Shown here: in pieces, positions 4,742 through 59,569 of the stretch
How the letters are laid out: each line of letters opens with the position of its first letter
How positions within the stretch are numbered: the stretch's first letter is position 1
NCBI RefSeq assembly: GCF_001413925.1
Contig: NZ_LBMJ01000001.1
Location: 186,001-250,000, forward strand
Length of the DNA stretch: 64,000 bases
Direction: 5' to 3'
Source of the DNA: Nonlabens sp. YIK11
Lineage (GTDB): Bacteria > Bacteroidota > Bacteroidia > Flavobacteriales > Flavobacteriaceae
The notes under the pieces: model-generated
The model's database searches: none
Seen by the model: the letters and a program-made list of their open reading frames with translations, nothing else
What the model was told of the DNA's origin: nothing
Position numbers and translations under genes: made by a program

Positions 4742-4755
4742 GCTTTCGCGAAAGC
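4742..4755. repeat. GCTTTCGCGAAAGC palindrome, copy 1
   Basis: A perfect 14-bp palindrome in the divergent region between trkA and ubiE, 30 nt upstream of the ubiE promoter element. First of 15 identical copies in the window. Confidence 0.95.
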
Positions 4756-4784
4756 GAAATAACAATTACCTCAACGCTCCATTG

Positions 4785-4792
4785 TATCTTTG
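4785..4792 (+). promoter_or_regulatory. Promoter element for ubiE-porT
   Basis: TATCTTTG, 16 nt before the GTG start of ubiE, fitting the flavobacterial TAnnTTTG consensus. The leader would be about 10 nt. Confidence 0.65.
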
Positions 4793-4808
4793 ACACAAAC
4801 CACAAACC

Positions 4809-5540
4809 GTGTCTGAACAAGTAAAACCAAATCAGGACGATGCCGCCGGAAAAAAGCAGCAAGTCACCAAAATGTTTGATACCATTAGCGGAGAATACGA
4901 CGGGCTGAACCGTATGATTTCTCTAGGACTGGATCAAAAATGGCGTGACAACGTCGTGGATATGGTTGCCGCGCACCAGCCTGACACAATTATGGATATC
5001 GCAACAGGAACCGGTGATCTGGTGATCAAAATGGCTGAAAAAACCAAGGCTTCCAGACTCGTAGGTCTGGATATTTCAAGCGGTATGCTTGAAGTGGGAA
5101 AAATCAAGGTGAAACAGCAACAACTGGACGATCGCATTGAAATGGTGCTGGGTGATTCTGAGAACCTGCAGTTTGAAGACCACACGTTTGACGCGATAAC
5201 CGTATCCTATGGTGTTCGTAATTTTGAGGACCTTGAAAAAGGTCTTTCTGAAATATTGCGCGTTTTAAAACCCAACGGGATCTTAGTCATTCTTGAAACC
5301 AGCGTACCTCAAAAATTTCCTTTTAAACAAGGATATTATGTGTATAGCAATTTAGTAGTGCCAACGCTGGGCAAAATTTTCTCCAAGGATCGCAAGGCAT
5401 ATGGATATCTTTCAAAAAGCGCTTCAAAATTCCCTTATGGAGAGCGTTTCAACAATATTTTAAAGAAAGTTGGGTTTAAGGATGTGGAGAGCCATTTACA
5501 GTTTCACGGCGCCTCAACCATTTACAAAGCCATTAAATAA
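4809..5540 (+). CDS. ubiE: Demethylmenaquinone methyltransferase UbiE/MenG
   Basis: A 243-residue class I SAM-dependent methyltransferase that makes menaquinone from demethylmenaquinone; Bacteroidota use menaquinone for respiration. It carries the family signature KMFDTISGEYDGLNRMISLG near the N-terminus, the SAM-binding motif DIATGTGDLVIKMA, and the downstream VSYGVRNFEDLEKGLSEILRVLKPNG block. The start is GTG at 4809, placed 16 nt after a promoter element. Only 6 nt separate its stop from porT, a gene pair that I recall as common in the phylum. Confidence 0.95.
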   Translation: MSEQVKPNQDDAAGKKQQVTKMFDTISGEYDGLNRMISLGLDQKWRDNVVDMVAAHQPDTIMDIATGTGDLVIKMAEKTKASRLVGLDISSGMLEVGKIKVKQQQLDDRIEMVLGDSENLQFEDHTFDAITVSYGVRNFEDLEKGLSEILRVLKPNGILVILETSVPQKFPFKQGYYVYSNLVVPTLGKIFSKDRKAYGYLSKSASKFPYGERFNNILKKVGFKDVESHLQFHGASTIYKAIK

Positions 5541-5546
5541 TTACCG

Positions 5547-6969: not shown

Positions 6970-6971
6970 CG

Positions 6972-6979
6972 TATTTTTG
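6972..6979 (+). promoter_or_regulatory. Promoter element for tamL-like gene
   Basis: TATTTTTG, 11 nt before the ATG at 6991. It lies in the 21-bp space between two divergent start codons. Confidence 0.5.
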
Positions 6980-6990
6980 AGCCGCTACCT

Positions 6991-9602: not shown

Positions 9603-10670
9603 ATGAGCCACAACATCAAACCAGGCGTTGCCACGGGCAACCAAGTTCAAGAAATATTCAATCATGCAAAAGCAAATGGCTATGCATTACCAGCGGTAAA
9701 TGTGATAGGATCCAGCTCTGTAAACGCGGTTTTGGAAACTGCTGCAGAACTTAAGTCACCCGTAATCATACAATACTCCAACGGTGGTTCTGTATTTAAC
9801 GCCGGTAAAGGCTTGAGCAACGAGAACCAGCGTGCGGCCATCTTGGGTGGTATTGCCGGTGCTAAGCATGTACACGAACTTGCAGAGGCTTACGGCGCAA
9901 CGGTAATTCTACACACAGACCACTGTGCAAAGAATTTATTGCCATGGATTGATGGTTTGCTGGATGCTAGTGAGGCACGCTTTCGCGAAAGCGGAAAAAG
10001 TTTATACTCCTCGCACATGTTAGACCTAAGTGAAGAGCCACTGGAAGAGAACATTGAGATTTGTAAAAGATACCTAGAGCGCATGTCAAAAATGGACATG
10101 ACTCTTGAAATTGAGTTAGGTATTACCGGTGGTGAAGAAGATGGTGTTGATAACAGCGATGTTGACGAGTCAAAATTATATACCCAACCAGAAGAAGTCG
10201 CTTATGCTTATGAAGAGCTAAGCAAAGTGAGTGATAAATTCACGGTGGCAGCAGCCTTTGGTAACGTTCATGGAGTTTACAAGCCAGGTAACGTAAAGCT
10301 CACTCCTAAAATCTTGAAGAACTCTCAAGAATACATCACCAAAAAATATGGTGTGGAGCACAACCACATTGACTTTGTATTTCACGGTGGTTCTGGTTCT
10401 ACTGTAGAAGAAATACGTGAAGCGATAGGCTATGGTGTGGTTAAAATGAACATTGATACAGATCTTCAATGGGCATTTGCTGACGGCATCAAAAAATATA
10501 TGGACAGCAACGACGACTTCCTAAAATCACAAATAGGAAATTCAACAGGTCCAGATTCCCCTAACAAGAAATATTACGATCCACGCAAATGGTTGCGTGT
10601 AGGAGAAGAGTCTTTCAAAGAGCGATTGAAAAAAGCCTTTGAAGATTTAAATAATGTGGGAACACTTTAA
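9603..10670 (+). CDS. fbaA: Fructose-bisphosphate aldolase, class II
   Basis: A 355-residue zinc-dependent aldolase of glycolysis and gluconeogenesis. The metal-ligand segment VILHTDHCAKNLLPWIDG near residue 105 and the VFHGGSGST phosphate-binding loop are intact, as is the C-terminal NMDT-like MNIDTDLQWAF. The residues RFRES at 126-130 are encoded by a perfect copy of the GCTTTCGCGAAAGC palindrome (9979-9992); this surface helix is variable among homologues, and its length looks unchanged. A strong hairpin follows the gene. It is monocistronic by its own promoter and that hairpin. Confidence 0.97.
   Translation: MSHNIKPGVATGNQVQEIFNHAKANGYALPAVNVIGSSSVNAVLETAAELKSPVIIQYSNGGSVFNAGKGLSNENQRAAILGGIAGAKHVHELAEAYGATVILHTDHCAKNLLPWIDGLLDASEARFRESGKSLYSSHMLDLSEEPLEENIEICKRYLERMSKMDMTLEIELGITGGEEDGVDNSDVDESKLYTQPEEVAYAYEELSKVSDKFTVAAAFGNVHGVYKPGNVKLTPKILKNSQEYITKKYGVEHNHIDFVFHGGSGSTVEEIREAIGYGVVKMNIDTDLQWAFADGIKKYMDSNDDFLKSQIGNSTGPDSPNKKYYDPRKWLRVGEESFKERLKKAFEDLNNVGTL
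9979..9992. repeat. GCTTTCGCGAAAGC palindrome, copy 2 (inside fbaA)
   Basis: A perfect copy within the fbaA coding region, read in frame as R-F-R-E-S. Confidence 0.95.
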
Positions 10671-12103: not shown

Positions 12104-12109
12104 TGAACT

Positions 12110-12163: not shown

Positions 12164-12177
12164 GCTTTCGCGAAAGC
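12164..12177. repeat. GCTTTCGCGAAAGC palindrome, copy 3
   Basis: Between the rpsO terminator and pnp, extended to TACGCTTTCGCGAAAGCGTA (a 20-bp perfect palindrome). It lies about 100 nt upstream of the pnp ATG. Confidence 0.95.
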
Positions 12178-15991: not shown

Positions 15992-16005
15992 GCTTTCGCG
16001 AAAGC
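15992..16005. repeat. GCTTTCGCGAAAGC palindrome, copy 4
   Basis: In the 58-bp convergent gap between the MscS gene and a small membrane protein; flanked as TTCGCTTTCGCGAAAGCGAA. Confidence 0.95.
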
Positions 16006-18570: not shown

Positions 18571-18584
18571 GCTTTCGCGAAAGC
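18571..18584. repeat. GCTTTCGCGAAAGC palindrome, copy 5
   Basis: In the intergenic region after mgtE; context GAGTTCGCTTTCGCGAAAGC. Confidence 0.95.
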
Positions 18585-23537: not shown

Positions 23538-24824
23538 TCATTCCCTGACGACCAGTTGCAGCGTTTCTTGGGTACGTTGTTTTAGCAAAACATCCTTGCC
23601 GTCTTCCATTTCCTGGATGGTATCACCGGCATAGTGGCGTATGGTATACAACGACACACCACTCACGTGACTGACCTTAAAATCCTTTTGCAGTCCATCA
23701 AGCAATTCTTCCAGCTTGGCATATTTATCTTCTACACACAGGGAAAAACTAATTGCACTGTTTTGTAAAAGTCCTACCTGTATTTTATTCTCACTAAGCT
23801 CGTCAAAAATCTTTGAGATACTCTTTTCACCTATAAAGCTGAAATCCCTAGACGCGATACGTAAAAACACCATATTCTTCCTCACGATAAAACAAGGTGT
23901 GGTAGGCACAAGGCTTTCACTGGAAGTAATGGTTGACCCATCAGCTTTAGGATCTATAAAAGACTTTACATTAAGCGGTATATTTTTCTCTTGAAGTGGC
24001 TGCAGTGTTTTAGGGTGAATAACACTGGCACCGTAAAAAGCCAACTCAATTGCCTCATCATAAGGTATTTGTTGTAACAATACGGTATCCTGAAACACAC
24101 GTGGATCTGCATTGAGAACACCTGGAACATCCTTCCAGATCGTTACCTCGCTAGCATTGAGACTATAGGCAAGAATCGCTGCCGTGTAGTCACTACCTTC
24201 ACGACCTAGGGTTGTGGTAAAGCCGTTCTCATCAGATCCTATGAATCCCTGCGTGATAAACAATTCATCACCACATTCCTTTTGGATCTGCTCCTCGGTA
24301 TGTTCCCAATCTACCGTGGCATCCCTATACTTATTATCAGTCATGATAAGTTGACGCGCGTCCTTCCAGACCACGGGAATATCGCAGGAATTCAAATAGG
24401 CGGCGACAATTTTAGTAGACATTAATTCTCCATGGCTCACGACTTGATCGTAAAGAAAACTGTAGTTGCGGCTCTTGTTGCGCAGCATTTCGCCTTTGAG
24501 TGACTCTACGATAGCTTTGAGGTCTTTTTTTATATCGCTTTCGCGAAAGCGAACTACCCAATCATCCTCAACACCATCCACGTTCTTGTCTAAGTCTTCA
24601 ATGATCTCCAAGTGTTGCTCCTGCAAATGATCAATTAGCTTGAGGTAGCTATTGTCATTGGATTCATAGCTTGCGATTACAGCCTCCAGCGCGTTTGTGG
24701 TCTTGCCCATCGCCGAAACCACGATGCCCAGATTTTGGGTTCCCATGGTTTTTAAAACCTTAGTGACGTTGCGTACTCCATCGGCATCTTTTACTGATGC
24801 GCCTCCAAATTTGTAAATTCTCAT
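23538..24824 (-). CDS. lysC: Aspartate kinase
   Basis: A 428-residue monofunctional aspartokinase, first step of lysine, threonine and methionine synthesis. The kinase domain opens with MRIYKFGGASVKDADGVRNV, then SAMGKTTNALE and TTLGREGSDYTAAILAYSL, and two ACT domains form the C-terminal 130 residues. The ATG at 24824 overlaps the TGA of the GNAT gene (ATGA), indicating coupling. Residues 92-96 (RFRES) come from a palindrome copy (24537-24550), located in a variable helix. There is no fused homoserine dehydrogenase. Confidence 0.95.
   Translation of the reverse strand: MRIYKFGGASVKDADGVRNVTKVLKTMGTQNLGIVVSAMGKTTNALEAVIASYESNDNSYLKLIDHLQEQHLEIIEDLDKNVDGVEDDWVVRFRESDIKKDLKAIVESLKGEMLRNKSRNYSFLYDQVVSHGELMSTKIVAAYLNSCDIPVVWKDARQLIMTDNKYRDATVDWEHTEEQIQKECGDELFITQGFIGSDENGFTTTLGREGSDYTAAILAYSLNASEVTIWKDVPGVLNADPRVFQDTVLLQQIPYDEAIELAFYGASVIHPKTLQPLQEKNIPLNVKSFIDPKADGSTITSSESLVPTTPCFIVRKNMVFLRIASRDFSFIGEKSISKIFDELSENKIQVGLLQNSAISFSLCVEDKYAKLEELLDGLQKDFKVSHVSGVSLYTIRHYAGDTIQEMEDGKDVLLKQRTQETLQLVVRE
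24537..24550. repeat. GCTTTCGCGAAAGC palindrome, copy 6 (inside lysC)
   Basis: In-frame copy encoding R-F-R-E-S at residues 92-96 of aspartokinase. Confidence 0.95.
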
Positions 24825-27987: not shown

Positions 27988-28001
27988 GCTTTCGCGAAAG
28001 C
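27988..28001. repeat. GCTTTCGCGAAAGC palindrome, copy 7
   Basis: In the 310-bp divergent gap; flanked TTCGCTTTCGCGAAAGCGAA. The remainder of the gap (27937-28204) shows nothing else except a 66-codon frame I do not support. Confidence 0.95.
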
Positions 28002-28803: not shown

Positions 28804-29832
28804 ATGAGCAAGCCACTACTACAATTTACAGACAAAGGTATCTACTGCGATGCTGCAGGTGTTTATCTAGATCCATGGAAACCGGTAGACAAGGCACTTA
28901 TCACGCACGGTCATGCAGATCATAGCCGCTGGGGCCATAAAAAATACATCACGCATCACGACAATGTGCCTATTATTTCCCACAGATTGGGAGATATTAA
29001 TGTTTCTGGTGTCGCTCATGGCGAAAGCCTGCTCATCAACAACGTCAAGTTTTCATTCCATCCTGCGGGACACATTCCGGGATCTTGCCAGATAAGAGTG
29101 GAACACAAAGACGAAGTCTGGGTTTTTACCGGCGATTATAAAACGGAAGATGATGGGATTTCCACACCTTACGTTCCCATTAAGTGTGACACCTTCATAA
29201 CGGAATGCACTTTTGGGTTGCCTGCTTTTAAATGGCGACCACAAAGCGAAGTTATGCACGATGTCAACGAATGGTGCGCTCAAAATCATGCCGAAGGCAA
29301 GACCTCCATCCTATTTGCCTATTCTCTAGGCAAAGCCCAGCGACTGATCAAACATTTAGACACCAGCCAGATGAAAATATACTGTCATGGCGCGGTCTAT
29401 AAAATGACGGAAGTATTGCGCGAACTCATCGATTTCCCAGAAACTACCTTGGTTACTCGAGAAACTACCAAAGAAGAATTGAAAGGCAATATTGTGGTCG
29501 CTCCACCTAGTGCTCATGGATCTGCATGGATGCGCAAATTTGTGCCTTATGCCACGGCTAGTGCTAGCGGCTGGATGACTTTTAGAGGTGCGCGCCGCAG
29601 AAGAGCCATTGATAAAGGCTTTGTACTATCTGACCATTGCGATTGGGACGGCTTACTGGAAAGCATCGATGCCACTGGTTGCGAGAATGTGATCACCACG
29701 CATGGCTATCAGGATATTTTTGCCAGATACCTACGGGAAGAGAAAGGACTTAACGCCATTAGCGAGCGCACGCAATACGAAGGTGAAACGGTCAATGAAT
29801 CTGAACCTGAAATCGAGGTCGAAGCTGAATGA
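28804..29832 (+). CDS. Ligase-associated DNA damage response exonuclease (MBL fold)
   Basis: A 342-residue metallo-beta-lactamase-fold nuclease of the CPSF/beta-CASP-like type. Metal ligands are in ITHGHADHSRWG (HxHxDH near residue 38) and later FHPAGHIPGS, FTGDYK and SDHCDWDG. Annotation families pair this enzyme with an ATP-dependent ligase and an Lhr-like helicase, and that is the order here. The C-terminus ends in a Glu-rich run (NESEPEIEVEAE) encoded by a degenerate 6-bp repeat that continues past the stop. Confidence 0.9.
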   Translation: MSKPLLQFTDKGIYCDAAGVYLDPWKPVDKALITHGHADHSRWGHKKYITHHDNVPIISHRLGDINVSGVAHGESLLINNVKFSFHPAGHIPGSCQIRVEHKDEVWVFTGDYKTEDDGISTPYVPIKCDTFITECTFGLPAFKWRPQSEVMHDVNEWCAQNHAEGKTSILFAYSLGKAQRLIKHLDTSQMKIYCHGAVYKMTEVLRELIDFPETTLVTRETTKEELKGNIVVAPPSAHGSAWMRKFVPYATASASGWMTFRGARRRRAIDKGFVLSDHCDWDGLLESIDATGCENVITTHGYQDIFARYLREEKGLNAISERTQYEGETVNESEPEIEVEAE

Positions 29833-29976
29833 TAAATTTAAATCCAAACTTAAATTCAAATCTCAAATTAGTCGTGATATTATCTAAAACATCCAAAACC
29901 AACTTATCCAAGTTTCAAAGCGCATCGGTCACGACCAATAATTTAAGTTTTGATTTTGACTTAAGTTTAAATTTAG
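29790..29976. repeat. Degenerate hexamer-like simple repeat across exonuclease end and spacer
   Basis: Six-base-periodic sequence spans the last codons of the exonuclease (GAATCT GAACCT GAAATC GAGGTC GAAGCT) and two AT-rich blocks in the spacer (29833-29868 and 29940-29976). The two spacer blocks are roughly inverted copies of each other. Confidence 0.5.
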
Positions 29977-29980
29977 GAAC

Positions 29981-31720
29981 GTGAAACAATTCGCAGGACT
30001 CATAAGAACCATCGATGGTACCAATAAGACCACACTCAAGGTCGCTGCCTTAACCGAATATTTCAACACGGCACCTGAAGAGGATAAATTATGGACCATT
30101 GCTATTCTTTCCCATAGAAGACCCAAACGACCGGTCAACACTACGCTCATGCGGGAATGGGCTACGGACATTAGCGGTGTTCCCATGTGGTTGTTTGAAG
30201 AATCCTATCACATCGTAGGTGACCTCGCGGAAACGATCGCGCTCATCCTACCTACGACCAGCGAACCATCTGATAAATCTTTATCGCAAATCATCCATGA
30301 GTTGATTGCCTTGCGCAAAAAAACGGATGAAGAAAAGAAAGAATACCTACAGGAAAACTGGCTCAAACTGAATTATTACGAGAGGTTCGTGTTTAATAAA
30401 ATCATGACTGGTGGATTTAGAATTGGCGTCTCACAAAAATTAATGACACGTGCGCTCGCAGCATCCACAGGTATTGATCAGGATGTGTTGGCGCATAAAC
30501 TGATGGGAAGCTGGACTGGCGAAAACACTACCTTTCAAGAATTGGTTTATGAAGATAACGAGGTCGCCATGCGCGGCAAACCTTATCCGTTTTATTTGGC
30601 TTATGCGGTAGAAGGAAAAGTGGAAGAATTAGGCGAAGTGAACCAATGGAGTGCAGAACATAAATGGGACGGCATCAGATCTCAAACCATCATCAGGGCT
30701 GGCGAACTATTCGTCTGGTCACGCGGTGAGGAATTGGTTACTGATAAATATCCCGAGTTTCAAAAATTCCTCGATGTGATTCCCAACGGTACCGTTATCG
30801 ATGGTGAGATATTGCCTTATAAGGATGGCGAGATCATGAACTTCAACGACCTTCAAACCAGAATAGGTCGCAAAACGGTAGGTAAAAAATTATTAGCTGA
30901 TGTTCCAGTGGTAGTGGTCGCGTATGATTTACTGGAATGGCAAGGCAAAGACATCAGAGAATTGCCGTTTATGGAGCGCCGGAAGTTGTTGGAGGAATTG
31001 GTTAATGTGGTGCAGGACGGAACTCGCTATGAGCAATCTGGTGACAACCGGCAGATCCTGAAACAAGTTCAGGATGATAATTCCAATGTCAATTCGAGTT
31101 CGAATTCAGATTCAGCTTCAAGTTCGAGTTCAGGTTCGAGTTCGAGTTCAAGTTCAGCGGTGCCGCTACTGCTCTCAGAAACCATGAACTTCAACTCTTG
31201 GGAAGAAGTGGCTGCAGAACGTAACAAAGCAGAAGAGCGTCGCTCTGAAGGATTGATGCTCAAAAAGAAGGACAGCCCTTATCTGGTAGGTCGCAAGAAA
31301 GGCGACTGGTGGAAATGGAAGGTCGATCCATTCAGCGTTGATGCTGTATTGACTTATGCCATGCGAGGTCACGGTCGCCGAGCCAATTTATTTACCGACT
31401 ATACTTTTGGATTATGGCAGGATGGCGAATTGGTCACTTTTGCGAAAGCGTACTCTGGACTCACGGATGCCGAGTTTAGAAAAGTGGATGCTTGGATCAA
31501 GAAAAACACCTTGGAGCGTTTTGGACCCGTACGATCAGTAACGCCTCACCATGTTTTCGAAATTGCGTTTGAAGGCATTGCTCCTAGTAAACGACATAAA
31601 TCTGGTGTTGCTACAAGATTTCCACGGATTGTACGATGGAGAAAAGACAAACCCATTGAGGAAGCCAATACGCTAGATGATTTAAAGGCGTTGATACCGA
31701 CTGATGGAGAGTTTTTGTAG
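29981..31720 (+). CDS. ATP-dependent DNA ligase (repair cassette)
   Basis: A 579-residue ligase with an N-terminal DNA-binding domain (residues about 1-200), the adenylation domain with motif I EHKWDGIR (nucleophile Lys228) and the OB-fold domain (EGLMLKKKDSPYLVGRKKGDWWKWK). The start is GTG at 29981. Residues 357-392 are an in-frame insertion: RQILKQVQDD from an interspersed dyad repeat, then about 25 mostly serine residues. It falls between motif IIIa/IV and the V/VI region, so a tolerated surface loop is plausible. A degenerate palindrome copy encodes TFAKA at 486-490. Functions with the flanking nuclease and helicase in DNA repair. Confidence 0.93.
   Translation: MKQFAGLIRTIDGTNKTTLKVAALTEYFNTAPEEDKLWTIAILSHRRPKRPVNTTLMREWATDISGVPMWLFEESYHIVGDLAETIALILPTTSEPSDKSLSQIIHELIALRKKTDEEKKEYLQENWLKLNYYERFVFNKIMTGGFRIGVSQKLMTRALAASTGIDQDVLAHKLMGSWTGENTTFQELVYEDNEVAMRGKPYPFYLAYAVEGKVEELGEVNQWSAEHKWDGIRSQTIIRAGELFVWSRGEELVTDKYPEFQKFLDVIPNGTVIDGEILPYKDGEIMNFNDLQTRIGRKTVGKKLLADVPVVVVAYDLLEWQGKDIRELPFMERRKLLEELVNVVQDGTRYEQSGDNRQILKQVQDDNSNVNSSSNSDSASSSSSGSSSSSSSAVPLLLSETMNFNSWEEVAAERNKAEERRSEGLMLKKKDSPYLVGRKKGDWWKWKVDPFSVDAVLTYAMRGHGRRANLFTDYTFGLWQDGELVTFAKAYSGLTDAEFRKVDAWIKKNTLERFGPVRSVTPHHVFEIAFEGIAPSKRHKSGVATRFPRIVRWRKDKPIEEANTLDDLKALIPTDGEFL
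31054..31078. repeat. TCCTGAAACAAGTTCAGGA dyad, copy 2 (inside ligase)
   Basis: Identical to the 1013-1037 copy over 24 of 25 bases and translated in frame as Q-I-L-K-Q-V-Q-D-D. Confidence 0.9.
31089..31158. repeat. Serine-rich hexamer-like simple repeat in the ligase gene
   Basis: A GAGTTC/AAGTTC/TTCAGA-type repeat with 6-bp periodicity encoding about 25 residues that are mostly Ser (SSSNSDSASSSSS). It directly follows the dyad repeat. Confidence 0.85.
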
Positions 31721-31790
31721 TTCAAAATAAGTAATCCAGTATCGAGCGACAGTCGAGATATGGATGGTTTATGTATTAAAACAAGCAACA

Positions 31791-31815
31791 GATCCTGAAA
31801 CGGGTTCAGGATGGC
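31791..31815. repeat. TCCTGAAACGGGTTCAGGA dyad, copy 3
   Basis: A variant copy (AAACGGGTT for AAACAAGTT) in the spacer between ligase and helicase, 0.7 kb from the copy inside the ligase. Confidence 0.85.
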
Positions 31816-31848
31816 AAGAAATGCAGATCTCGTAACAAGCGCGAGGCA

Positions 31849-34308
31849 ATGATGACTAAAAAAGAACTCTTCCATATCGCCGAAGATTTTTTCCAGCAGC
31901 AAGGCTGGGAAGCGTTCCCTTTTCAGAAAAAGACCTGGGTAGCTTTTCTGGCAGGTAAGCATGGATTACTCAATGCGCCTACTGGTAGCGGGAAAACCTA
32001 TGCCTTGTGGGTCGCGATCGTTCTCAACTACATCAAGCAAAATCCGGATTACAAAAGCAAACCCAAAAAAGGCTTGAAAGCGATCTGGATCACGCCGTTG
32101 AGGTCGCTGTCCAACGAGATTGAGCAAACTTCCCAGCGTTTTGTGGATGCCATCGGTTTGCCATTTACGGTTGGGATTAGGTCTGGCGACACGTCTACTA
32201 AAGAGCGTGCGGCACAGATCAAATCCATGCCAGATCTGTTGATCACCACACCAGAAAGTCTGCATTTATTACTGGCGTCCAAGGATCATCAAAAGTTTTT
32301 TGGCAACCTCAACGCCATCGTGGTGGACGAGTGGCACGAGCTGTTGGGCACCAAACGCGGCGTGCAAATGGAACTGGGCATCTCGCGATTATTGGGCCTG
32401 AGCAAAAAACTTCGGGTTTGGGGAATTAGCGCAACGATCGGCAACCTGGAACAAGCCCGTCAAGTGTTGTTAGGTGTTGATGAAGTTCGCTTTCGCGAAA
32501 GCGTACTCATCAAAGCACAATTGAAAAAAGATATCGAGGTCAAGTCCATAATTCCGGCATCGATGGACAAGTTCCCGTGGCGCGGCCATCTGGGATTGCA
32601 CTTGATGAAAGAAGTGGTCGAGATTATTAATTCCAGTAAATCGACACTGATTTTTACCAATACACGGGCGCAATGTGAGCTGTGGTTTCAAGGCTTGATG
32701 ACCAATTTTCCCGAGCTTGCCGGCGAGGTCGCCATGCATCATGGATCGATCAATAAGGAAACGCGGATTTGGGTAGAGAATGCGATCAGGAACGAGAGTT
32801 TGAAGGCTTGTGTGTGCACCTCATCGCTGGATCTAGGTGTGGATTTTGCACCTGTGGAAACCATCATTCAAGTAGGTGGACCCAAAGGTGTTGCCCGATT
32901 TTTACAACGTGCCGGTCGTTCCGGCCACCGACCTGGCGAGACCAGCGTTATTCATTTTTTACCGACGCACGCGCTGGAATTGATCGAGGCAAGCGCGCTA
33001 CAAAAAGCCGTTTCCACTCAAGCCGTAGAAGATCGATTGCCGTACATTTTATGTTATGATGTGCTCATACAGTATTTGTGTACGCTCGCCGTTTCTGGCG
33101 GATTTTACCCTAGCGAAATCTATCCCGAAGTCAAGAATACCTTTTGCTATGCCAGCATTACCGATGAAGAATGGGACTGGTGCCTGCGCCTGATCGTTCA
33201 CGGCAGTTCATCGCTGCAATCCTATGACGAGTATAAACGTGTGACCGTAGAAACCGATGGGAAATATGTGATTACAGATCGCAAGGTTGCCATGCGTCAT
33301 CGCCTACAAATGGGAACCATCGTCACAGCGACTGATGTGACGGTAAAGTATGTGACTGGTGGTTACATAGGATCGATTGAGGAATACTTCATTAGTAAAC
33401 TTTCTCGTGGTGATGTTTTTGTTTTTGCGGGAAGAACGTTAGAATTCATTCGGTTGAAAGGAATGGTGGCGCAGGTGCGTAACTCATCTCGCAAACGGGC
33501 GCAAGTTTCCAATTGGCAAGGCAGCAAACTACCATTGAGTGCGCAACTGGGCGAACTGCTGCGTGAGGAAATGATTAATTTTCAAACCGGTAAAAAGCGT
33601 ACGCCAGAAGTCAAGGCGTTAAGAGATATTATCATACGCCAGCAGCGCGAAAGCATTATTCCGCAGCGTGATCAATTCTTGATTGAAACCTTTAAAACCC
33701 GAGAAGGCTATCATGCGGTTTTTTATCCGTTTGAAGGCCGATTTGTTCACGAGGCCATGGCCGGTGTAATTGCCTATCGCATCAGTTTATTAAAACCTAT
33801 CACGTTCTCGCTCGCGTTTAATGATTACGGCTTTGAGATCCTGAGTGATCAGGAATTTGACATGCAAGAAGTACTGGACAACAATCTACTCACACCAGAC
33901 ATGCTGTCCCAAGACCTGCAATCCAGCATGAATGCTACGGAAATGGCGCGGAGGAAATTCCGCGATATTGCGGTGATTTCTGGGCTTGTTTTTACAGGTT
34001 ACCCCAACAAATTGATCAAGACCAAGCACCTTCAAAATAGCAGCCAATTGTTGTTTGAAGTCTTTCGTGACAACGAACCCGAAAATTTGCTATTCAGACA
34101 AGCGTACACAGAAACCTTTGAACAAGCCATTGAAGAATACCGATTATTTGACGCGCTGGAGCGCATTCAAAATCAAGAAATTGTCTGGAAAGCCTGCGAG
34201 AAGCCTACGCCATTTTCGTTCCCAATTATTACAGATCGCTTACGCGAAAAATTAAGTAGCGAAAAGCTGGCAGATCGAATCAAGCGGATGCAGTTGCAAT
34301 GGGAATAA
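31849..34308 (+). CDS. Ligase-associated DEXH-box helicase (Lhr-like)
   Basis: An 819-residue superfamily 2 helicase. Walker A is LNAPTGSGKTYALW, motif II is VDEWHELLG, and the helicase C-terminal domain carries TSSLDLGVDFAPVETIIQVGGPKGVARFLQRAGRSGHRPGETS. A winged-helix/Lhr-type region completes the protein. It belongs with the MBL exonuclease and ligase in the repair cassette. A palindrome copy (32489-32502) supplies residues RFRES (214-218) in a loop after motif III. The metallophosphoesterase PdeM, usual fourth member, does not follow. Confidence 0.9.
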   Translation: MMTKKELFHIAEDFFQQQGWEAFPFQKKTWVAFLAGKHGLLNAPTGSGKTYALWVAIVLNYIKQNPDYKSKPKKGLKAIWITPLRSLSNEIEQTSQRFVDAIGLPFTVGIRSGDTSTKERAAQIKSMPDLLITTPESLHLLLASKDHQKFFGNLNAIVVDEWHELLGTKRGVQMELGISRLLGLSKKLRVWGISATIGNLEQARQVLLGVDEVRFRESVLIKAQLKKDIEVKSIIPASMDKFPWRGHLGLHLMKEVVEIINSSKSTLIFTNTRAQCELWFQGLMTNFPELAGEVAMHHGSINKETRIWVENAIRNESLKACVCTSSLDLGVDFAPVETIIQVGGPKGVARFLQRAGRSGHRPGETSVIHFLPTHALELIEASALQKAVSTQAVEDRLPYILCYDVLIQYLCTLAVSGGFYPSEIYPEVKNTFCYASITDEEWDWCLRLIVHGSSSLQSYDEYKRVTVETDGKYVITDRKVAMRHRLQMGTIVTATDVTVKYVTGGYIGSIEEYFISKLSRGDVFVFAGRTLEFIRLKGMVAQVRNSSRKRAQVSNWQGSKLPLSAQLGELLREEMINFQTGKKRTPEVKALRDIIIRQQRESIIPQRDQFLIETFKTREGYHAVFYPFEGRFVHEAMAGVIAYRISLLKPITFSLAFNDYGFEILSDQEFDMQEVLDNNLLTPDMLSQDLQSSMNATEMARRKFRDIAVISGLVFTGYPNKLIKTKHLQNSSQLLFEVFRDNEPENLLFRQAYTETFEQAIEEYRLFDALERIQNQEIVWKACEKPTPFSFPIITDRLREKLSSEKLADRIKRMQLQWE
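32489..32502. repeat. GCTTTCGCGAAAGC palindrome, copy 8 (inside helicase)
   Basis: In-frame copy encoding R-F-R-E-S (residues 214-218). Confidence 0.95.
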
Positions 34309-34316
34309 TTGAGTTA

Positions 34317-34341
34317 CCTAATTAATGTATAGTTAATTAGG
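34317..34341 (+). terminator. AT-rich inverted repeat after helicase
   Basis: The perfect 9-bp arms CCTAATTAA and TTAATTAGG surround a 7-nt loop and are followed by ATTTTG. It may be a weak terminator or a protein-binding dyad. Confidence 0.4.
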
Positions 34342-34391
34342 ATTTTGTATGAATTATCCTAGAATACATTTGGTGATAATTCTTAAACCTC

Positions 34392-35573
34392 ATGAACAGC
34401 ACTCGTCATTTCTATGCTCAATTAAAGGCAAAGAAAAAATCCCTTCAATACCTTGTTCGTCAACCTAGGAATTTTACAGCGGTTCCTGCAGACTGGCATG
34501 TCGTCGTTGCAGATGTTCAAAATAGCACGCAAGCGGTAGAAAATGGGATGCACAATAATGTTAACCTTGCAGCTACAGGCAGTGTTGTGGCCGTGCTTAA
34601 TAGTCTAAAAACAGACTTGCATAAACATGAGATTCCTTACTTTTTTGGTGGTGATGGAGTTACCTTTTTAATTCCGGACGATTATCTAGAAAAGGTCATG
34701 AGCGCTTTGGAAACCTATAAAAAACACGTTTTCAAAAACCTAAAACTCAAACTAAAGGTTGGAGCCTTATCCGTTAGGGAAATTTACCATAACAACTTAC
34801 AGATCAAAATCTTGAAGTCAAAAGTGAATCCGCATTTGACCATTCCTATTGTTTTAGGAAATGGCATCAAGTATGCCGAAAAATATATCAAGAAAGAAAT
34901 AGATCTGGCAAACGCTATTGAGGACTCCACTGCACTTATTGATTTAACCGGTATGGAGTGTCGCTGGGATCAAATCTCACCTCGTGATGAGAAAAATAAA
35001 GTGGTATGCCTGCTGGTACATTGCGAGGATGAAAGCCAGCAAGAATCTGTTTATGCAGATATTCTTGATATTATCACTTTGGTATTCGGAAGTCTTGAAG
35101 AGCGACAGCCTATAACTGTAAAAAGACTCAAGCTTAAGGCTACCATTCGCAAAATTAGAAAAGAAATGGTTGCACGAATAGGAAGAAATGATCTGACCTA
35201 TCTCGTGAAACACTGGTTGATCACCTATTTTGGCAAGTTTTACTTCGCCTATTTTAAAGAAGGAAAAGAATACCTCAATAAAGTAAGCCAGCTATCTGAC
35301 ACCATCATGTTTGACGGATCGCTCAACACCGTTATGGAAGGTGATGCAGATCAAATCGAGCGTTTGACAAACTACCTTGATTTACTGGAGCGAGAAGGCA
35401 AAATTAAGTACGGCATACATTCCACCTATGCATCAGTCATGAGTTGCTATGTTCAAGATAGAAGAGACAATCATATACATTTTGTAGATGCGACTGAAGG
35501 CGGCTACACCAGCGCAGCAGTGATCTTCAAGAGTAAGTTTGATCAAGAACTTGAGCTAGACCTTATGTATTAA
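34392..35573 (+). CDS. DUF3095 family protein (cyclase-fold-like)
   Basis: A 393-residue soluble protein of the DUF3095 family. The N-terminal half has a nucleotide-cyclase-like core: ADWHVVVADVQNSTQAVENG, then FFGGDGVTFLIPDDYL, which recalls the conserved Asp and Gly-Gly-Asp turn of class III adenylyl cyclases. The C-terminal part (about 220-390, ending in DATEGGYTSAAVIFK) is unique to the family. Enzymatic activity is not established. It follows the repair cassette after an AT-rich inverted repeat and 83 nt, so cotranscription is uncertain. Confidence 0.75.
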   Translation: MNSTRHFYAQLKAKKKSLQYLVRQPRNFTAVPADWHVVVADVQNSTQAVENGMHNNVNLAATGSVVAVLNSLKTDLHKHEIPYFFGGDGVTFLIPDDYLEKVMSALETYKKHVFKNLKLKLKVGALSVREIYHNNLQIKILKSKVNPHLTIPIVLGNGIKYAEKYIKKEIDLANAIEDSTALIDLTGMECRWDQISPRDEKNKVVCLLVHCEDESQQESVYADILDIITLVFGSLEERQPITVKRLKLKATIRKIRKEMVARIGRNDLTYLVKHWLITYFGKFYFAYFKEGKEYLNKVSQLSDTIMFDGSLNTVMEGDADQIERLTNYLDLLEREGKIKYGIHSTYASVMSCYVQDRRDNHIHFVDATEGGYTSAAVIFKSKFDQELELDLMY

Positions 35574-35684: not shown

Positions 35685-38600
35685 ATGAGTACTAAATTCA
35701 AGGAATACAAAGGGTTGAACCTACCAGAAGTTGATGAACGCATCAAAGCATTTTGGAAGGAAAACGATATTTTCAATAAGTCTGTAACGACTCGTGAGGG
35801 AAATGAACCTTTTATTTTCTTTGAAGGACCACCATCTGCTAACGGCCTTCCTGGGATCCACCACGTGATGGGTCGTACCATCAAAGACCTATTTTGTCGC
35901 TTCAAGACACAACAAGGCTACCAGGTCAACCGCAAGGCTGGTTGGGATACGCACGGTCTGCCAGTGGAACTAGGCGTTGAAAAAGCACTGGGAATCACTA
36001 AGGAAGATATAGGCACTAAAATCAGTGTGGAAGAGTACAACGAGGAATGTAAAAAAGCCGTCCTCAAGTACACAGACATCTGGAGCAAACTCACAGATGA
36101 CATGGGCTACTGGGTAGATATGGAAGATCCATACATCACCTACAAGTCTAAATATATGGAGTCTGTATGGTGGTTGTTGAAAGAGATCTATTCCAAGGAT
36201 TTGATCTATAAAGGCTACACCATCCAGCCCTATTCACCAGCAGCAGGAACCGGTTTGAGCTCGCATGAGTTGAACCAGCCTGGAACCTATCAAGATGTGA
36301 CTGATACCACGGTGACCGCTCAATTTAAAGTCGTGGACCCTTCAAAATTACCGTTTGCTGCGAGCGGCGAGGTCTTTTTCCTCGCTTGGACGACCACGCC
36401 GTGGACACTGCCATCCAATGTAGCGCTTACAGTTGGTCCCAAGATCGACTACGTGCTGGTAGACACTTTCAACCAGTACACGGGCGAGCCTATGCAGGTG
36501 ATCCTTGCCGAAAAGCTCGTGAGCTACCAGTTTGGTAAAAAATACCAAAATGTGGATGATGAGTCCGCTTTCGCGAAAGCGAAACAAGCTTACCAACTTT
36601 CTGACAAGAAAATACCGTATAGAATCCTAGGGCGCTGCCAAGGAACCGATCTGGTCAACATACGCTACGAGCAATTGTTGGATTATGCTCAGCCTTATGA
36701 AAACGCACAGGATGCCTTTAGAGTCATCGCAGGTGACTTTGTAACTACAGAGGACGGAACCGGAATCGTACACACGGCACCAACCTTTGGAGCAGACGAT
36801 GCGCTGGTTTCCAGACAGGCAAACCCACCTATTCCACCACTATTGGTGCTCGATGAATATAAAAATCCAGTACCACTAGTCACCCTACAGGGAAAATTCC
36901 GTGATGAGTTGCCGTTTATAGGTGGGAAATACGTGAAGAATGAATATTTCGCAGAAGGTGAAGCACCAGAACGATCGGTAGATGTGGACATCGCGATCAA
37001 ATTAAAAGAAGACAACCGCGCCTTTAAGGTGGAGAAATACGTGCACAGTTACCCGCATTGTTGGAGAACGGACAAGCCTGTTTTATACTATCCGTTAGAT
37101 AGTTGGTTTATAAAGGTGACCGAGTTCAAGGACCGCATGCACGAGTTGAACAAGTCCATCAACTGGAAACCTAAATCTACTGGAGAAGGACGTTTTGGTA
37201 ACTGGCTCGCAAATGCAAACGATTGGAACCTTTCCAGATCTAGATTTTGGGGAATTCCATTGCCCATCTGGAGAAACGAGACCGGAACCGAAGAAAAAAT
37301 CATCGGCTCCATCGAGGAATTAGTGACTGAAATCGAGAAATCCATCGCTGCTGGTTTCATGACTGAAAATCCGTTTGCGGGATTCAAGTCTGGCGATATG
37401 AGCGATGCGAACTATGACCTAGTAGACCTGCATAAAAATGTGGTGGACGCGATTTACCTGGTTGGGCAAAACGGCGAGAAATTGACCCGAGAAGCAGACC
37501 TGATTGACGTCTGGTTTGACTCAGGTTCCATGCCCTATTCCCAGTGGCATTACCCTTTTGAGAATAAAGAAGAAGTAGAAAACCAACTGCGCAAGGCAGA
37601 TTTCATTGCCGAAGGTGTCGACCAGACACGCGGCTGGTTTTACACGCTACACGCGATCGCCACCATGATAAGCGACGATGTAGCCTATAAAAATGTAGTG
37701 AGTAACGGTCTTGTACTGGATAAGAACGGGCAAAAAATGTCCAAACGTCTAGGCAATGCCGTGGATCCTTTTGATACGCTGGGCAAATTTGGCGCAGATG
37801 CCACACGCTGGTACATGGTGAGCAATGCCAATCCTTGGGACAACCTCAAGTTTGACATTGACGGGATTACTGAGGTACAACGCAAGTTCTTTGGGACCTT
37901 GTACAACACCTACAGCTTCTTTGCTTTGTATGCAAATGTGGATGGGTTCCGCTTTCGCGAAAGCGAAATACCTCTAGCAGATCGTCCAGAAATTGATCGA
38001 TGGGTACTTTCAGAATTGAACACGCTTATCAAGGAAACGACCGCCTTTTATGAGGACTATGAACCGACCAAAGCAGCAAGAGCGATCACGACCTTTGTGA
38101 CCGAAAACCTGAGCAACTGGTACGTACGTTTGTGTAGAAGACGTTTCTGGAAAGGTGATTACCAACAAGATAAAATCGCTGCCTATCAAACCTTGTACAC
38201 TTGTTTGAAAACCGTAGCGCAGCTGGGAGCACCTATTGCACCATTCTTTATGGACCAATTATACCGCGACTTGACAAGTGTTTGTGAAGAAAATGCCGTA
38301 GAAAGTGTGCATTTGTCGAAATTTCCTACATTTGATGCAACCATCATCGATCCTGAATTGGAAGAAAAAATGCACAAAGCGCAAGTCATCTCAAGTTTGA
38401 CGCTTTCCTTACGTAAAAAGGAAAGTATCAAGGTGCGTCAACCGCTACAGCGCATTATGATTCCAGTTTTGGGAGCTCACGATAAAAAGCAGATTGAAGC
38501 CATCGCAGACCTGGTCAAAAGCGAGGTAAATGTCAAGGAAATAGAGCTCATCGATGACGCGAGCGGCATACTTGTGAAAGAGATCAAGCCTAATTTTAAG

Positions 38601-45305: not shown

Positions 45306-45319
45306 GCTTTCGCGAAAGC
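45306..45319. repeat. GCTTTCGCGAAAGC palindrome, copy 11
   Basis: In the gap between the retropepsin-like gene and the alpha/beta hydrolase, flanked TTCGCTTTCGCGAAAGCGAA then CTCC. Confidence 0.95.
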
Positions 45320-47061: not shown

Positions 47062-47075
47062 GCTTTCGCGAAAGC
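47062..47075. repeat. GCTTTCGCGAAAGC palindrome, copy 12
   Basis: Directly after the DUF2071 gene and before the shared terminator, in the 103-bp convergent gap. Confidence 0.95.
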
Positions 47076-50993: not shown

Positions 50994-51884
50994 CTAGTTG
51001 CTAGTGGTTCTAGTGATAATGAAGCCTTTATTTCCATTTCGCTCCATGCGTTCTTGCATTTTCTTTTCCCTTAACTCGTCAAAATCCTTTTGATTAATTT
51101 TCTTACCAGATTTTGGTTTTTTCATATCAAGATCCTTTTCTGGATTGATCTCAATTTTTGTACATAGCAATACCGTATTAGCTTCTTGCACCTCGAGAAT
51201 TAATCCGGGAAGCCCTTGATATTCTCCTGGACCGTTGCTTATAGGGATTTCTGGAGTGTACCATGCCGTGATCGTTCTGTCTTGCTCAGGAATCATGGCT
51301 AGCAAACTACCTTGCGAGGCCTTTTCCATCTTTTCTTCCTGTTCCTTTTTTTCTTCTTCGGTAAGGACAGGTGTGTAGGTGGCTTTGTAGCAGGTATAGT
51401 TTCCTATTTTTTTAGTTTCATTGACAGGTTGCCATGCATACGATGGTATATCATCAACGATCAGAAACTCTTTTCCCATGATCTCATCTTCCTTATAATA
51501 CTTTTGCTCTTTTAAGTCTTTGTAAACGCTGCTTGTGGATCCATTGTTGACGGTAAAGCTCACGCTTATTTCACCAGCTTTTTTAGGTTTGGCAAGTTCT
51601 ACAACCTTGTTATAAGAAGATTCAGTTGGGGTGATTTCCATTACATATTCCTGCTGATTACCCTTAGACATAGCCTCTCTTAACTTGGCCATGATTTCAG
51701 AGGTTCTGGCGTCTTCGGCTTCATCCTTTGCCTCCTTTTGCTTATCCTCATCATCCTTAAGGTCAATTTTAGTTTGAACGATGTAATGTGCGATGGCCTT
51801 GAAGTTTTCTTGGGCTTGTAATGTATTCGCTTTCGCGAAAGCGATACAAACAACAATCAACGCGGTCCATTTAAAATTCTTCAT
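50994..51884 (-). CDS. GLPGLI family exported protein (palindrome in signal peptide)
   Basis: A 296-residue GLPGLI paralogue (GEYQGLPGLILEVQEANT; EFLIVDDIPSYAWQPVNETKKIGNYTCYKATY). The signal peptide is MKNFKWTALIVVCIAFAKANTLQAQ, and its hydrophobic end AFAKA (residues 15-19) is a palindrome copy (51829-51842). The protein is more charged than its neighbour (KDDEDKQKEAKDEAED). It lies first in the run of minus-strand genes facing the divergent histidine kinase gene. Confidence 0.9.
   Translation of the reverse strand: MKNFKWTALIVVCIAFAKANTLQAQENFKAIAHYIVQTKIDLKDDEDKQKEAKDEAEDARTSEIMAKLREAMSKGNQQEYVMEITPTESSYNKVVELAKPKKAGEISVSFTVNNGSTSSVYKDLKEQKYYKEDEIMGKEFLIVDDIPSYAWQPVNETKKIGNYTCYKATYTPVLTEEEKKEQEEKMEKASQGSLLAMIPEQDRTITAWYTPEIPISNGPGEYQGLPGLILEVQEANTVLLCTKIEINPEKDLDMKKPKSGKKINQKDFDELREKKMQERMERNGNKGFIITRTTSN
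51829..51842. repeat. GCTTTCGCGAAAGC palindrome, copy 13 (in signal peptide)
   Basis: In-frame copy encoding A-F-A-K-A at residues 15-19 of the GLPGLI protein, at the end of its signal-peptide hydrophobic core. Confidence 0.95.
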
Positions 51885-54294: not shown

Positions 54295-54308
54295 GCTTTC
54301 GCGAAAGC
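54295..54308. repeat. GCTTTCGCGAAAGC palindrome, copy 14
   Basis: Between the convergent response regulator and DUF427 genes. Confidence 0.95.
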
Positions 54309-55804: not shown

Positions 55805-55824
55805 AATGAAATACCACTAAATAT

Positions 55825-55855: not shown

Positions 55856-55982
55856 TAATAAAAATGAATTAATAGATGCTTCATGCAAAGTTTAGAACTA
55901 AACCAGAGAATTTTTTCAATATTAAAAGATCCTAAACAAAAAGCTTCTACTTATCAAATAAGTAAAGAATGAGCTCCTCAAA

Positions 55983-57149: not shown

Positions 57150-57313
57150 AATGGGAAGTGCTATGTTTAAGAAATAAAGTTAGGTTAAGCCATCGCCAAC
57201 AAATTACCTTTTCGTCATATAGCTAATATATTAGACCAAAAATTATTTGTGTTAAACGAATGCCAACAGAACCTTGAAATTCTAAATAAGAAACGCGAAA
57301 TTATAAAGCTCTA

Positions 57314-58276
57314 TTACCTAACCTTAAAAAGGTAATCTTTAAAAAACTCTCGATCATCCTCATAAAACTGGACGATTTCTAAACCTGCCTTCTGCGCAAG
57401 CCACTCCACGATGTCATCATCATATTTTTGAGAAATTTCGGTATGAATGGTTTCCCATTTCTTAAACTCAACTTGTAGGTTTAAATGCCTTACGTCAACC
57501 GTACAAGGTTCCGTGGCGAGTAGATAGCTCTTTGCCGTTCCTGTCTGTGGATCGTATGCTTCCCAATGTTCAAAAACATCTACTGGAAAATTAGCCTGCA
57601 TTTCTTTATTGATTCGGTGCAAAAGATTTCTATTGAACTCTTGCGTGATCCCTTGGGAATCGGCATAAGCATTTTGAATAGTTAACGGATCTTTCTTTTG
57701 ATCAAACCCCATAAACAAGACATCTTTATCGCTCATGATTTCTTCTAGCTTACTTAAAAAATCAATAGCTTCTGGATGTTGAAGATTTCCTATGTTAGAT
57801 CCTAGTACAAAAATCGCTTTGGGTCTTTTATTGTACTGGGCAAGTTCTTCCAGCACCTTAAAATAAGTTCCTTGCTCACCTTGTACATCGAGGTTGGGAA
57901 ACACTTGCAATAAATCCTGTGCCAACTGATCAATTGCATTTTGGCTTATATCGATGGGTTTATATGTAAAATCAGTTTGATGATCACACAATTCCTTGAG
58001 CAACACTTTTGTTTTTTTTCCATCACCAGCACCCAACTCAATCAAATCAAAACCACCATCAATGGTTAATAGTTTACGTAAATCTGTTTTATAGGTATCT
58101 ATAATATTATACTCGGCTCCTGTGAGATAGTATTCTGGTAACTCCATGATTTGTTGAAATAGACGGTCGCCTTTATCATCATAGATATATTTAGAACTCA
58201 AGTATTTAGGAGATGAAGTCAGTCCTTTTTTGACATGGACTTCAAATTCCTTTTGAAAGGTCTCTTTTTTAGTCAT
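57314..58276 (-). CDS. egtD: L-histidine N-alpha-methyltransferase EgtD
   Basis: A 320-residue SAM-dependent methyltransferase that trimethylates histidine to hercynine. It shows YLSSKYIYDDKGDRLFQQIMELPEYYLTGAEYNI near the N-terminus and the SAM-binding LIELGAGDGKKTKVLL. The ATG at 58276 overlaps the egtB TGA (ATGA), the earlier ATG at 58312 being inside egtB. With EgtB it would make the sulfoxide precursor of ergothioneine. Confidence 0.9.
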   Translation of the reverse strand: MTKKETFQKEFEVHVKKGLTSSPKYLSSKYIYDDKGDRLFQQIMELPEYYLTGAEYNIIDTYKTDLRKLLTIDGGFDLIELGAGDGKKTKVLLKELCDHQTDFTYKPIDISQNAIDQLAQDLLQVFPNLDVQGEQGTYFKVLEELAQYNKRPKAIFVLGSNIGNLQHPEAIDFLSKLEEIMSDKDVLFMGFDQKKDPLTIQNAYADSQGITQEFNRNLLHRINKEMQANFPVDVFEHWEAYDPQTGTAKSYLLATEPCTVDVRHLNLQVEFKKWETIHTEISQKYDDDIVEWLAQKAGLEIVQFYEDDREFFKDYLFKVR

Positions 58277-59439
58277 AAAGATTGGGCTAGTCTTAAGCCT
58301 GTAAATTGCCATCTTAAATAAGGATGGAAAAAATTGCGGTAGGTAGGACGTGCATGGTTGGCCGCAGTGGCAATGGAACTACCTCTTAATACTTTTTGAT
58401 TGACCATGAATTTACCGTTGTACTCGCCTAGAGCACCATCTGGTTTCTGGTAATTGGGATAAGGTAGGTAAGCACTTTCTGTCCATTCCCATCGTTCACC
58501 CCATTTGAATTTATCTTGAGCTATTTCCCATTCAAATTCAGTAGGTAGTCTCATACCTTTCCATTGTGCAAAGGCAAAAGCTTCATAGTAGGAAATATGA
58601 GTGACGGCTGCGTTCTTGTCTATTTCTAGGGATCCCGAAAGTAAATAGTTGCTCCATGTACCATTGTCGTTAAACCAGTACATAGGTGCGCTTATGTCGT
58701 TTTTTTGAACCCAATCCCAACCTTCTGTATGCCAAAGCAAAACCTTAGTATAGCCGCCATCTTCAATAAACTGCATCCATTCTCCATTCGTCACCAGCTT
58801 ATTTGAAATAGCATATGGCTCTACAAAAACCCGATGACTAGGCAATTCATTATCATAACAAAAAGTGTCTTTGTCATGCCCTATATGATAAATCCCATCA
58901 TTTATGGGAATCATTTGTGCCGGCTGGTGCTCTACAAAAACCTCATCCTTTTGCGCGCCATAAATAGGCTGCAATGGGTTGTTGCCTAAAATGTATTTGA
59001 TATCTGTAAGCAACAATTCTTGATGTTGCTTCTCGTGATGTATCCCTATTTCTATCACCTCTAGAACCTCTGCCGCTGGCTCGCTGTACAACAACTGTAT
59101 CATTGCATTGGTGACATGAGCTCGATAGCTATAGACATCAGAAACGCTGGGACGCGATAGATTACCGCGATCTGTTCGCACGACACGTTTTCCCATGCTT
59201 TCATAGTAACTATTGAATACATAGGCGTATCGCTCGTCAAATCTTCGGTAGCCTGATAGATATTTAGTAAGTAGGAATTCCTCAAAAAACCAAGTCGTGT
59301 GTCCCAAATGCCATTTAGGTGGTGATACATCTACAATGGGCTGTACCACATAATCCTCTGTAGCCAGCGGTTTACAGATGTTTTCAGAGTCGGCTCTGGT
59401 TTGATTGAAAAGTTCGAGAAGTGGTTGATCTTGGTTCAC
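58273..59439 (-). CDS. egtB: Ergothioneine biosynthesis protein EgtB
   Basis: A 388-residue iron enzyme. The DinB-like N-terminal domain has HLGHTTWFFEEF (His47) and IHHEKQHQELL (His135 and His139), a three-His iron site; the C-terminal formylglycine-generating-like domain ends with GSSIATAANHARPTYRNFFHPYLRWQFTGLRLA. It joins a thiol donor to hercynine. Whether the donor is gamma-glutamyl-cysteine or cysteine cannot be told. No egtA, egtC or egtE is in the window. The start is GTG at 59439. Confidence 0.9.
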   Translation of the reverse strand: MNQDQPLLELFNQTRADSENICKPLATEDYVVQPIVDVSPPKWHLGHTTWFFEEFLLTKYLSGYRRFDERYAYVFNSYYESMGKRVVRTDRGNLSRPSVSDVYSYRAHVTNAMIQLLYSEPAAEVLEVIEIGIHHEKQHQELLLTDIKYILGNNPLQPIYGAQKDEVFVEHQPAQMIPINDGIYHIGHDKDTFCYDNELPSHRVFVEPYAISNKLVTNGEWMQFIEDGGYTKVLLWHTEGWDWVQKNDISAPMYWFNDNGTWSNYLLSGSLEIDKNAAVTHISYYEAFAFAQWKGMRLPTEFEWEIAQDKFKWGERWEWTESAYLPYPNYQKPDGALGEYNGKFMVNQKVLRGSSIATAANHARPTYRNFFHPYLRWQFTGLRLAQSL

Positions 59440-59443
59440 TACT

Positions 59444-59451
59444 CAAATTTA
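59444..59451 (-). promoter_or_regulatory. Promoter-like element for egtB
   Basis: TAAATTTG on the minus strand, 5 nt before the GTG. If real, the message would be nearly leaderless. Confidence 0.35.
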
Positions 59452-59555
59452 AGTGGTTTTGATTGTAAGCAGATTCCTGTTAGAGTTAACTTCTAGTTAA
59501 ACAGACCGCTGTAACCCTCGATTTTTGAAATATCAATGATATTTTTTGTGATTTC

Positions 59556-59569
59556 GCTTTCGCGAAAGC
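59556..59569. repeat. GCTTTCGCGAAAGC palindrome, copy 15
   Basis: Between egtB and thyA, flanked TTCGCTTTCGCGAAAGCGAA. Confidence 0.95.

Follow-up and report, generated by a model that had tools for sequence, protein, structure and literature searches.

A highly iterated, evenly spaced palindrome on Nonlabens chromosomes, possibly a landmark read by a dimeric DNA-binding protein

A perfect 14-bp palindrome, GCTTTCGCGAAAGC, recurs 15 times in a stretch of 64,000 nucleotides from Nonlabens sp. YIK11 (the window; bases 186001-250000 of the 3.23-Mb contig NZ_LBMJ01000001.1, the second contig being 29 kb), and it can be compared with iterated sites already described in other bacteria. The chromosome-landmark sites parS, Noc sites, matS and the FtsK-orienting polar sequences (KOPS) are short, often palindromic, and read by a dedicated protein, and the Architecture IMparting Sequences (AIMS) rise towards the terminus. 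AIMS are 8-bp repeated motifs proposed to serve functional chromosome architecture and to limit foreign DNA (PMC5993296). The highly iterated palindrome HIP1 of cyanobacteria, GCGATCGC, is a single perfect palindrome that recurs in great numbers across a clade, its function being unsettled (PMC4390886). Finally, the DNA uptake sequences (DUS) of Neisseriaceae and the uptake signal sequences (USS) of Pasteurellaceae are present in hundreds of exact copies, with strong conservation, few one-mismatch forms and an enrichment between genes, all of which are found for the Nonlabens palindrome as well.

As with HIP1, the element is one short perfect palindrome, hugely over-represented in the genomes of a clade. 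In the genome of the window (the own genome, G000; other G labels and the L labels denote other genomes and loci sampled) there are 752 copies while its reversed sequence, used as control, has 0, and all of the 22 other Nonlabens genomes searched carry 288-857 copies. The original prediction, made from the window, had expected a genome-wide excess and had proposed a highly iterated palindrome rather than a classical transposed repeat, and both expectations are supported. Its comparison with HIP1 stands only as an analogy: the sequence is different from GCGATCGC, the phylum is another, the unit is 14-16 bp with arms of about 25 bp against 8 bp, the inner subwords of the palindrome are near expectation, and the spacing of the Nonlabens element is strongly over-dispersed (even). 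From DUS and USS the palindrome differs in being a perfect dyad, in excluding close pairs, and in that no type IV pilus (T4P) ATPase was found in the tested hosts. It may be said to work like parS, Noc sites, matS and KOPS, however its copies far outnumber parS, Noc or matS sites, lie over the whole chromosome without a trend from origin to terminus (ori-ter), and are accompanied by no consistent ParB paralogue; and unlike AIMS it is 14-16 bp long, symmetric and again without the ori-ter trend.

The taxonomic range of the palindrome is narrow. In the same search as the 22 Nonlabens genomes, 36 genomes of other genera gave one with 6 copies and 35 with none. Among 397 Flavobacteriaceae genomes (four of them Nonlabens, the own included) 80 carry at least one copy, and outside Nonlabens hundreds are found only in G250 (857) and G234 (408), one genome each of two other genera, the others having 0-19; among 296 Bacteroidota genomes, again with the own included, 16 have any copy and the other 15 of these carry at most 4 each. 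A 36-row ileS tree groups Leeuwenhoekiella and G188 with Nonlabens, G250 and G234 at weak support (56/83), so that the motif may have had a single origin followed by loss in Leeuwenhoekiella. Forms with up to two mismatches, counted against the reversed control, number 881/11 in the own genome, 887/14 in G014, 1281/21 in G250 and 732/48 in G234; they number 76/28 in the Leeuwenhoekiella genome G439 and 86/20 in the near relative G188, where 9 are exact, and further 41/5 in G120, 31/12 in G117, 24/8 in G352, 29/18 in G259, 40/26 in G440 and 21/13 in G441, with ratios near 1:1 in G131, G023, G245 and G390. The excess of near matches in Leeuwenhoekiella suggests a loss, but this is not demonstrated because other genera share the excess and because four near-misses in sampled Leeuwenhoekiella loci have arms unlike those of the motif. 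In the literature covered, which leaves out most subscription journals and all preprints, we found no paper with the 14-, 16- or 20-mer and nothing on highly iterated palindromes in Bacteroidetes, and among papers on Nonlabens palindromes none concerned this motif by titles and the beginnings of abstracts.

In the window, every one of the 15 copies first listed is an exact match, and the mean interval of 3.9 kb agrees with the roughly 4 kb first given. No form with one mismatch occurs there, and matches at up to two mismatches number 17, against a mean of 0.24 and a largest value of 3 after shuffling. All 15 copies reach the 16-mer CGCTTTCGCGAAAGCG, while the 20-mer, which most were said to reach, is attained by 6 of the 15; the true extension is instead a pair of longer, softer arms, T/G-rich and C-poor, on both sides. 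Over 1.094 Mb of the own genome, 238 of 269 copies reach the 16-mer, and the 269 exact copies stand against 31 one-mismatch forms. Our open reading frame (ORF) map places 7 window copies inside ORFs and 8 between them; the copy at 4742 is a borderline case, 10 nt inside a TTG-started ORF, so that 6 genic and 9 intergenic, the division of the original prediction, are equally possible. The copies are as follows, without assigned strand.

4742..4755, copy 1, within a TrkA-type ORF as called, 10 nt from its start
9979..9992, copy 2, within a class-II aldolase gene
12164..12177, copy 3, intergenic, 100 nt upstream of the PNPase ORF
15992..16005, copy 4, intergenic, full 20-mer
18571..18584, copy 5, intergenic, 27 nt past the MgtE ORF
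24537..24550, copy 6, within an amino-acid-kinase gene
27988..28001, copy 7, intergenic, full 20-mer
32489..32502, copy 8, within the Lhr-type helicase gene, at the same or a near offset in 6/8 Nonlabens loci
36567..36580, copy 9, within ileS, exact at the site in 16/20 Nonlabens
37951..37964, copy 10, within ileS, exact in 10/20 Nonlabens, same length in those without
45306..45319, copy 11, intergenic, full 20-mer
47062..47075, copy 12, intergenic, full 20-mer
51829..51842, copy 13, within a Porph_ging-family gene
54295..54308, copy 14, intergenic, full 20-mer
59556..59569, copy 15, intergenic, adjoining the thymidylate synthase gene, full 20-mer

The genic copies at 9979, 24537, 32489, 36567, 37951 and 51829 encode, according to frame, the recurrent peptides AFAKA, RFRES and LSRK, which make up 33, 17 and 14 of the 64 in-ORF copies sampled.

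Along the chromosome the copies are spaced far more evenly than chance allows. In 440 kb of the own chromosome there are 117 copies (one of them in a sequence gap, its position being taken from the genome-wide search) with a mean interval of 3.7 kb and a coefficient of variation (CV) of 0.44; random placement with the same genic and intergenic weights gives a CV of 1.05, and a value as low as 0.44 was reached in 0 of 5000 runs. Only 2 of the 116 intervals are below 1 kb where 30 are expected, and the shortest is 361 bp. Within 20-kb stretches the CV is 0.54 in the own genome (random 0.87), 0.51 in other Nonlabens (random 0.86) and 0.51 in G250 (random 0.88), with 0 of 3000 simulations as low in each case; in G234, with 13 spacings, it is 0.54 (random 0.77) with 122 of 3000 as low. 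Moreover, the copies are not confined to the region of the window, an outcome that would have refuted the original prediction: of 38 stretches of 20 kb sampled round the chromosome, 37 contain the palindrome, and the variance-to-mean ratio of copies per stretch is 0.48. Over these 38 stretches the copy density correlates with G+C (rho 0.43, p 0.008), and its trend with distance from the dnaA position, an ori/ter check which had been proposed, is not significant (rho 0.20, p 0.23). DNA outside ORFs makes up 9% of the sequence but holds 35 of 99 sampled copies, the remaining 64 lying inside ORFs.

The core is flanked by arms of about 25 bp. The strand that runs into the dyad is poor in C there (T/G-rich), and the one that runs out of it is poor in G. 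This symmetric profile is alike in the own genome, in other Nonlabens and in G250, is weaker in G234 (24 copies), and holds for the 64 copies inside ORFs as well as for the 35 between them. Beyond this compositional profile no sequence common to the copies was seen, which is in line with the earlier view that no longer mobile repeat unit is involved. Within a copy, each arm varies almost independently of the other, with little mirrored correlation, which fits two half-sites and a dimeric DNA-binding protein, not pairing. A hairpin or cruciform as the selected form is rejected in that mirrored arm positions match about as often as shuffled partners at most positions, the exceptions being -1 and -2 in the own genome (upward by about 3 standard deviations), -4 (upward by about 3) and -6 (downward by about 2) in other Nonlabens, and -1 in G234 (downward by about 2).

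The copies are also conserved well beyond their background, as was seen when their positions were compared in sister genomes. In the comparison with 18 divergent species (rows L177-L194), whose aligned DNA is 71-79% identical, own copies could be aligned in 48 cases and are exact in 31 of them, against 1-7% of background 14-mers, with sites and species not independent; L176 (G004, 5/5 copies) is left out of this figure as too close, and a pooled 45/66 in 26 loci is not used as it counts genomes twice (L009/L181, L010/L179, L013/L182, L029/L183, L032/L191, L035/L187). The close species G004 retains 99 of the 102 copies that could be aligned with it; 3 are found only in the own genome and 2 only in G004, and all five differences are of a single base. 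At 4-fold sites the identity with G004 is 0.994 over the 180 sites of the core, 0.914 over 511 sites at 8-37 bp and 0.872 at 38-100 bp, from where it falls slowly to 0.834 at 2-3.5 kb; this slow fall is weak, as 10 of 400 rotations are as strong at 4-fold sites and 35 of 400 at all sites. The raised identity in the arms reads as selection on them.

The turnover of single copies can be followed in ileS of 20 Nonlabens. Where site 1 (copy 9) is not exact, it is off by one base in three genomes and by two in one. Compared with other genera, Nonlabens has four additional residues in the loop at this site, which may go back to an insertion when the site arose. Site 2 (copy 10), exact in half of the genomes, shows no length change relative to the remainder. 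Only site 2 is present in 8 of the 20 loci, only a copy about 1.6 kb further on in 9, both in 2 and neither in 1, as if the spacing were restored elsewhere, an alternation which is confounded with kinship. Between Nonlabens and G250 or G234 no exact single site is held in common at aligned positions (0/2, 0/2, 0/4, 0/7, 0/2). In G250 ileS (L216) the position of site 2 holds a one-mismatch copy that is shifted by one base, as though of independent origin, and a two-mismatch copy lies at site 1.

Acquired DNA gives a divided picture. The 29-kb contig, a plasmid, has 0 copies, and the sole motif-free stretch of the 38 bears prophage structural genes (L288:1908-18445), 4 of its 10 scanned proteins being of tail, capsid, portal and terminase type. 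In IMG/VR, at least 120 viral stretches contain the 14-mer, and at least 15 among the matches listed, L070, L117 and L148 included, have site-like arms (arm score >5, the random 99th percentile being 1.0); some listed stretches share one contig, and those with site-like arms may be phages or prophages of motif-bearing hosts.

An exact symmetric core, loose and nearly independent arms, copy-by-copy upkeep and even spacing fit a landmark for a dimeric reader, and we regard it as the most probable reading, at roughly 45%, that the palindrome is an evenly spaced landmark for a dimeric DNA-binding protein, probably in chromosome organisation. Every copy would be bound by one and the same sequence-specific protein, probably a homodimer, which is predicted to contact the 16-bp dyad, almost invariant between copies, and with less stringency the roughly 25 bp of T/G-rich, C-poor DNA that precede it on each strand. 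The sites would serve as landmarks every 3.7-4.3 kb, a part in organising, compacting or segregating the chromosome being the most plausible, and selection, not molecular drive, would maintain both the individual copies and the intervals between them. More tentatively, one dimeric protein on an identical 16-bp palindrome every 3.7-4.3 kb along the whole chromosome might constitute an undescribed chromosome-organising system, perhaps with a single origin near the root shared by Nonlabens, g209 and g225 and a loss in Leeuwenhoekiella. Exact, evenly spaced and apparently selected marks along a whole bacterial chromosome are unusual, and if a protein reads them, they would offer a handle on the partitioning of the chromosome at the scale of a few kilobases, far from the usual model organisms.

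Several results weigh against such a landmark. No reader protein was found, the one guess tested being a ParB/Noc-type paralogue, which does not occur consistently: there is one ParB_N match in 5 of 6 Nonlabens, the own included, and two in G014. Helical phasing of the arms, expected if the DNA were wrapped, is not significant (p 0.14 and 0.16), and a segregation role gains no support from the distribution between ori and ter. Relatives without the motif do well, therefore the job is not a general one. The slow fall of identity away from the copies could reflect recombination centred on them, or copies located in better-kept DNA; the viral stretches with site-like arms are likewise unfavourable; and USS are also termed evenly distributed by their authors (PMC1939737; PMC7811141/PMC2397512).

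Of the functions initially proposed, chromosome organisation and DNA uptake both stay live, and the main rival to the landmark is indeed an uptake signal, which we consider unlikely though to be taken seriously: competent Nonlabens would favour palindrome-bearing DNA, and uptake with recombination (molecular drive) would accumulate and repair the copies. The copy number, exactness, fairly even distribution, intergenic enrichment and scarcity in acquired DNA resemble DUS and USS (PMC2397512, PMC7811141), and the share inside ORFs is close, 65% of USS copies in H. influenzae (PMC1939737) and 64/99 here; however, DUS and USS are described as non-palindromic (PMC1939737), and close pairs of the palindrome are excluded (minimum 361 bp), whereas 23% of USS lie within 100 bp of another USS (PMC7811141/PMC2397512), a comparison made with published descriptions of USS. 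The drop of 4-fold identity with distance from the motif would agree with molecular drive, but in Neisseria the DUS-proximal DNA is the more divergent, the opposite trend, and many recent DUS are said to come by recombination (PMC2397512/PMC7811141) where the five own/G004 differences are all single-base. As for the machinery, ComEC is present in 16 of 16 genomes tested, which does not decide the matter, and the ATPase of T4P and type II secretion systems (PF00437) stays below the cut-off in 8/8 Nonlabens, G234 and G250; as G259 and G440 are the only two genomes among 26 that pass, a match is missing from most relatives that lack the motif as well. In the same family according to its authors, Riemerella columbina prefers its own DNA, with no uptake motif established (PMC7965970). 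If the palindrome were an uptake signal after all, it would be a palindromic one in Bacteroidota hosts without a detected T4P ATPase, and no such case was found in the literature covered.

The other alternatives are far less probable than uptake. A recombination or self-recognition mark, namely a Chi-like or defence-related signal telling the chromosome from phage and plasmid DNA and orientation-free as a palindrome, would account for copies dense and even on the chromosome and missing from the plasmid and one prophage stretch, and for the T/G-rich DNA that leads up to the dyad on either strand. Against it stands the fact that the Chi sites known are directional as well as short, and the viral stretches bearing site-like arms led us to lower an already small estimate, so that we hold such a mark to be very improbable. 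Even more improbable is a by-product of a DNA methyltransferase and mismatch repair, which would draw on the likeness to HIP1; a methyltransferase model exists for highly iterated palindromes (PMC4390886). Outside the 14-mer, TCGCGA occurs 201 times against 204 expected from a maximal-order and 146 from a first-order model, and TTCGCGAA 18 times against 4 and 16, with no clear enrichment of a short site; inner subwords near expectation and over-dispersed spacing mean that a methylation site as the driver, one of the functions first suggested, is not supported, and a methylation bias would not explain the arms either. Largely refuted, and least probable among these, is that the copies are relics of a mobile palindromic repeat, such as a repetitive extragenic palindrome with its transposase (REP/RAYT) or a palindromic element of the Rickettsia type, or else transcription terminators. 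The copies are palindromic, enriched between genes and, inside genes, translated into short recurrent peptides, but they share nothing beyond compositional arms, and terminators are unlikely because 64 of the 99 sampled copies lie inside ORFs. Y1 transposases were found in G002, G005, G014, G017 and G250, whereas the motif-rich own genome, G022 and G234 have 0, although a REP/RAYT system would place one in every motif-rich genome; similarly the longer loop at ileS site 1 would suit a mobile element, while site 2 shows no length difference from motif-free species.

In genomes with few copies, 17 stretches (L195-L211) of ten genomes were picked where copies cluster, and they hold 42 copies, 27 of which lie in peptide contexts recurring in more than one genome. 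Eight copy-bearing proteins were scanned, and all belong to the efflux pumps, outer-membrane efflux proteins, metal-type P-type ATPases or FUR-family regulators. A metal-efflux island with an RND (resistance-nodulation-division) pump, outer-membrane efflux protein, metal P-type ATPase and FUR-family regulator carries the palindrome in several genera with otherwise low or no copies, which reads as an island that has travelled, presumably from a motif-bearing genome; the remaining 15 of the 42 copies are not explained by it. The palindrome also flags DNA probably exported from such genomes, for example this island in other genera. A ParB_N domain is present in a 616-aa frame of G033, at a distance of about 6.5 kb from the first copy.

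Within the window itself, positions 28804-35573 hold a DNA-repair-like cluster composed of an ATP-dependent DNA ligase, the Lhr-type helicase, a DUF3095 protein and a sub-threshold metallo-beta-lactamase match. Over the best segments, the helicase matches that of N. antarcticus at 93% identity and that of an uncultured Nonlabens at 98%.

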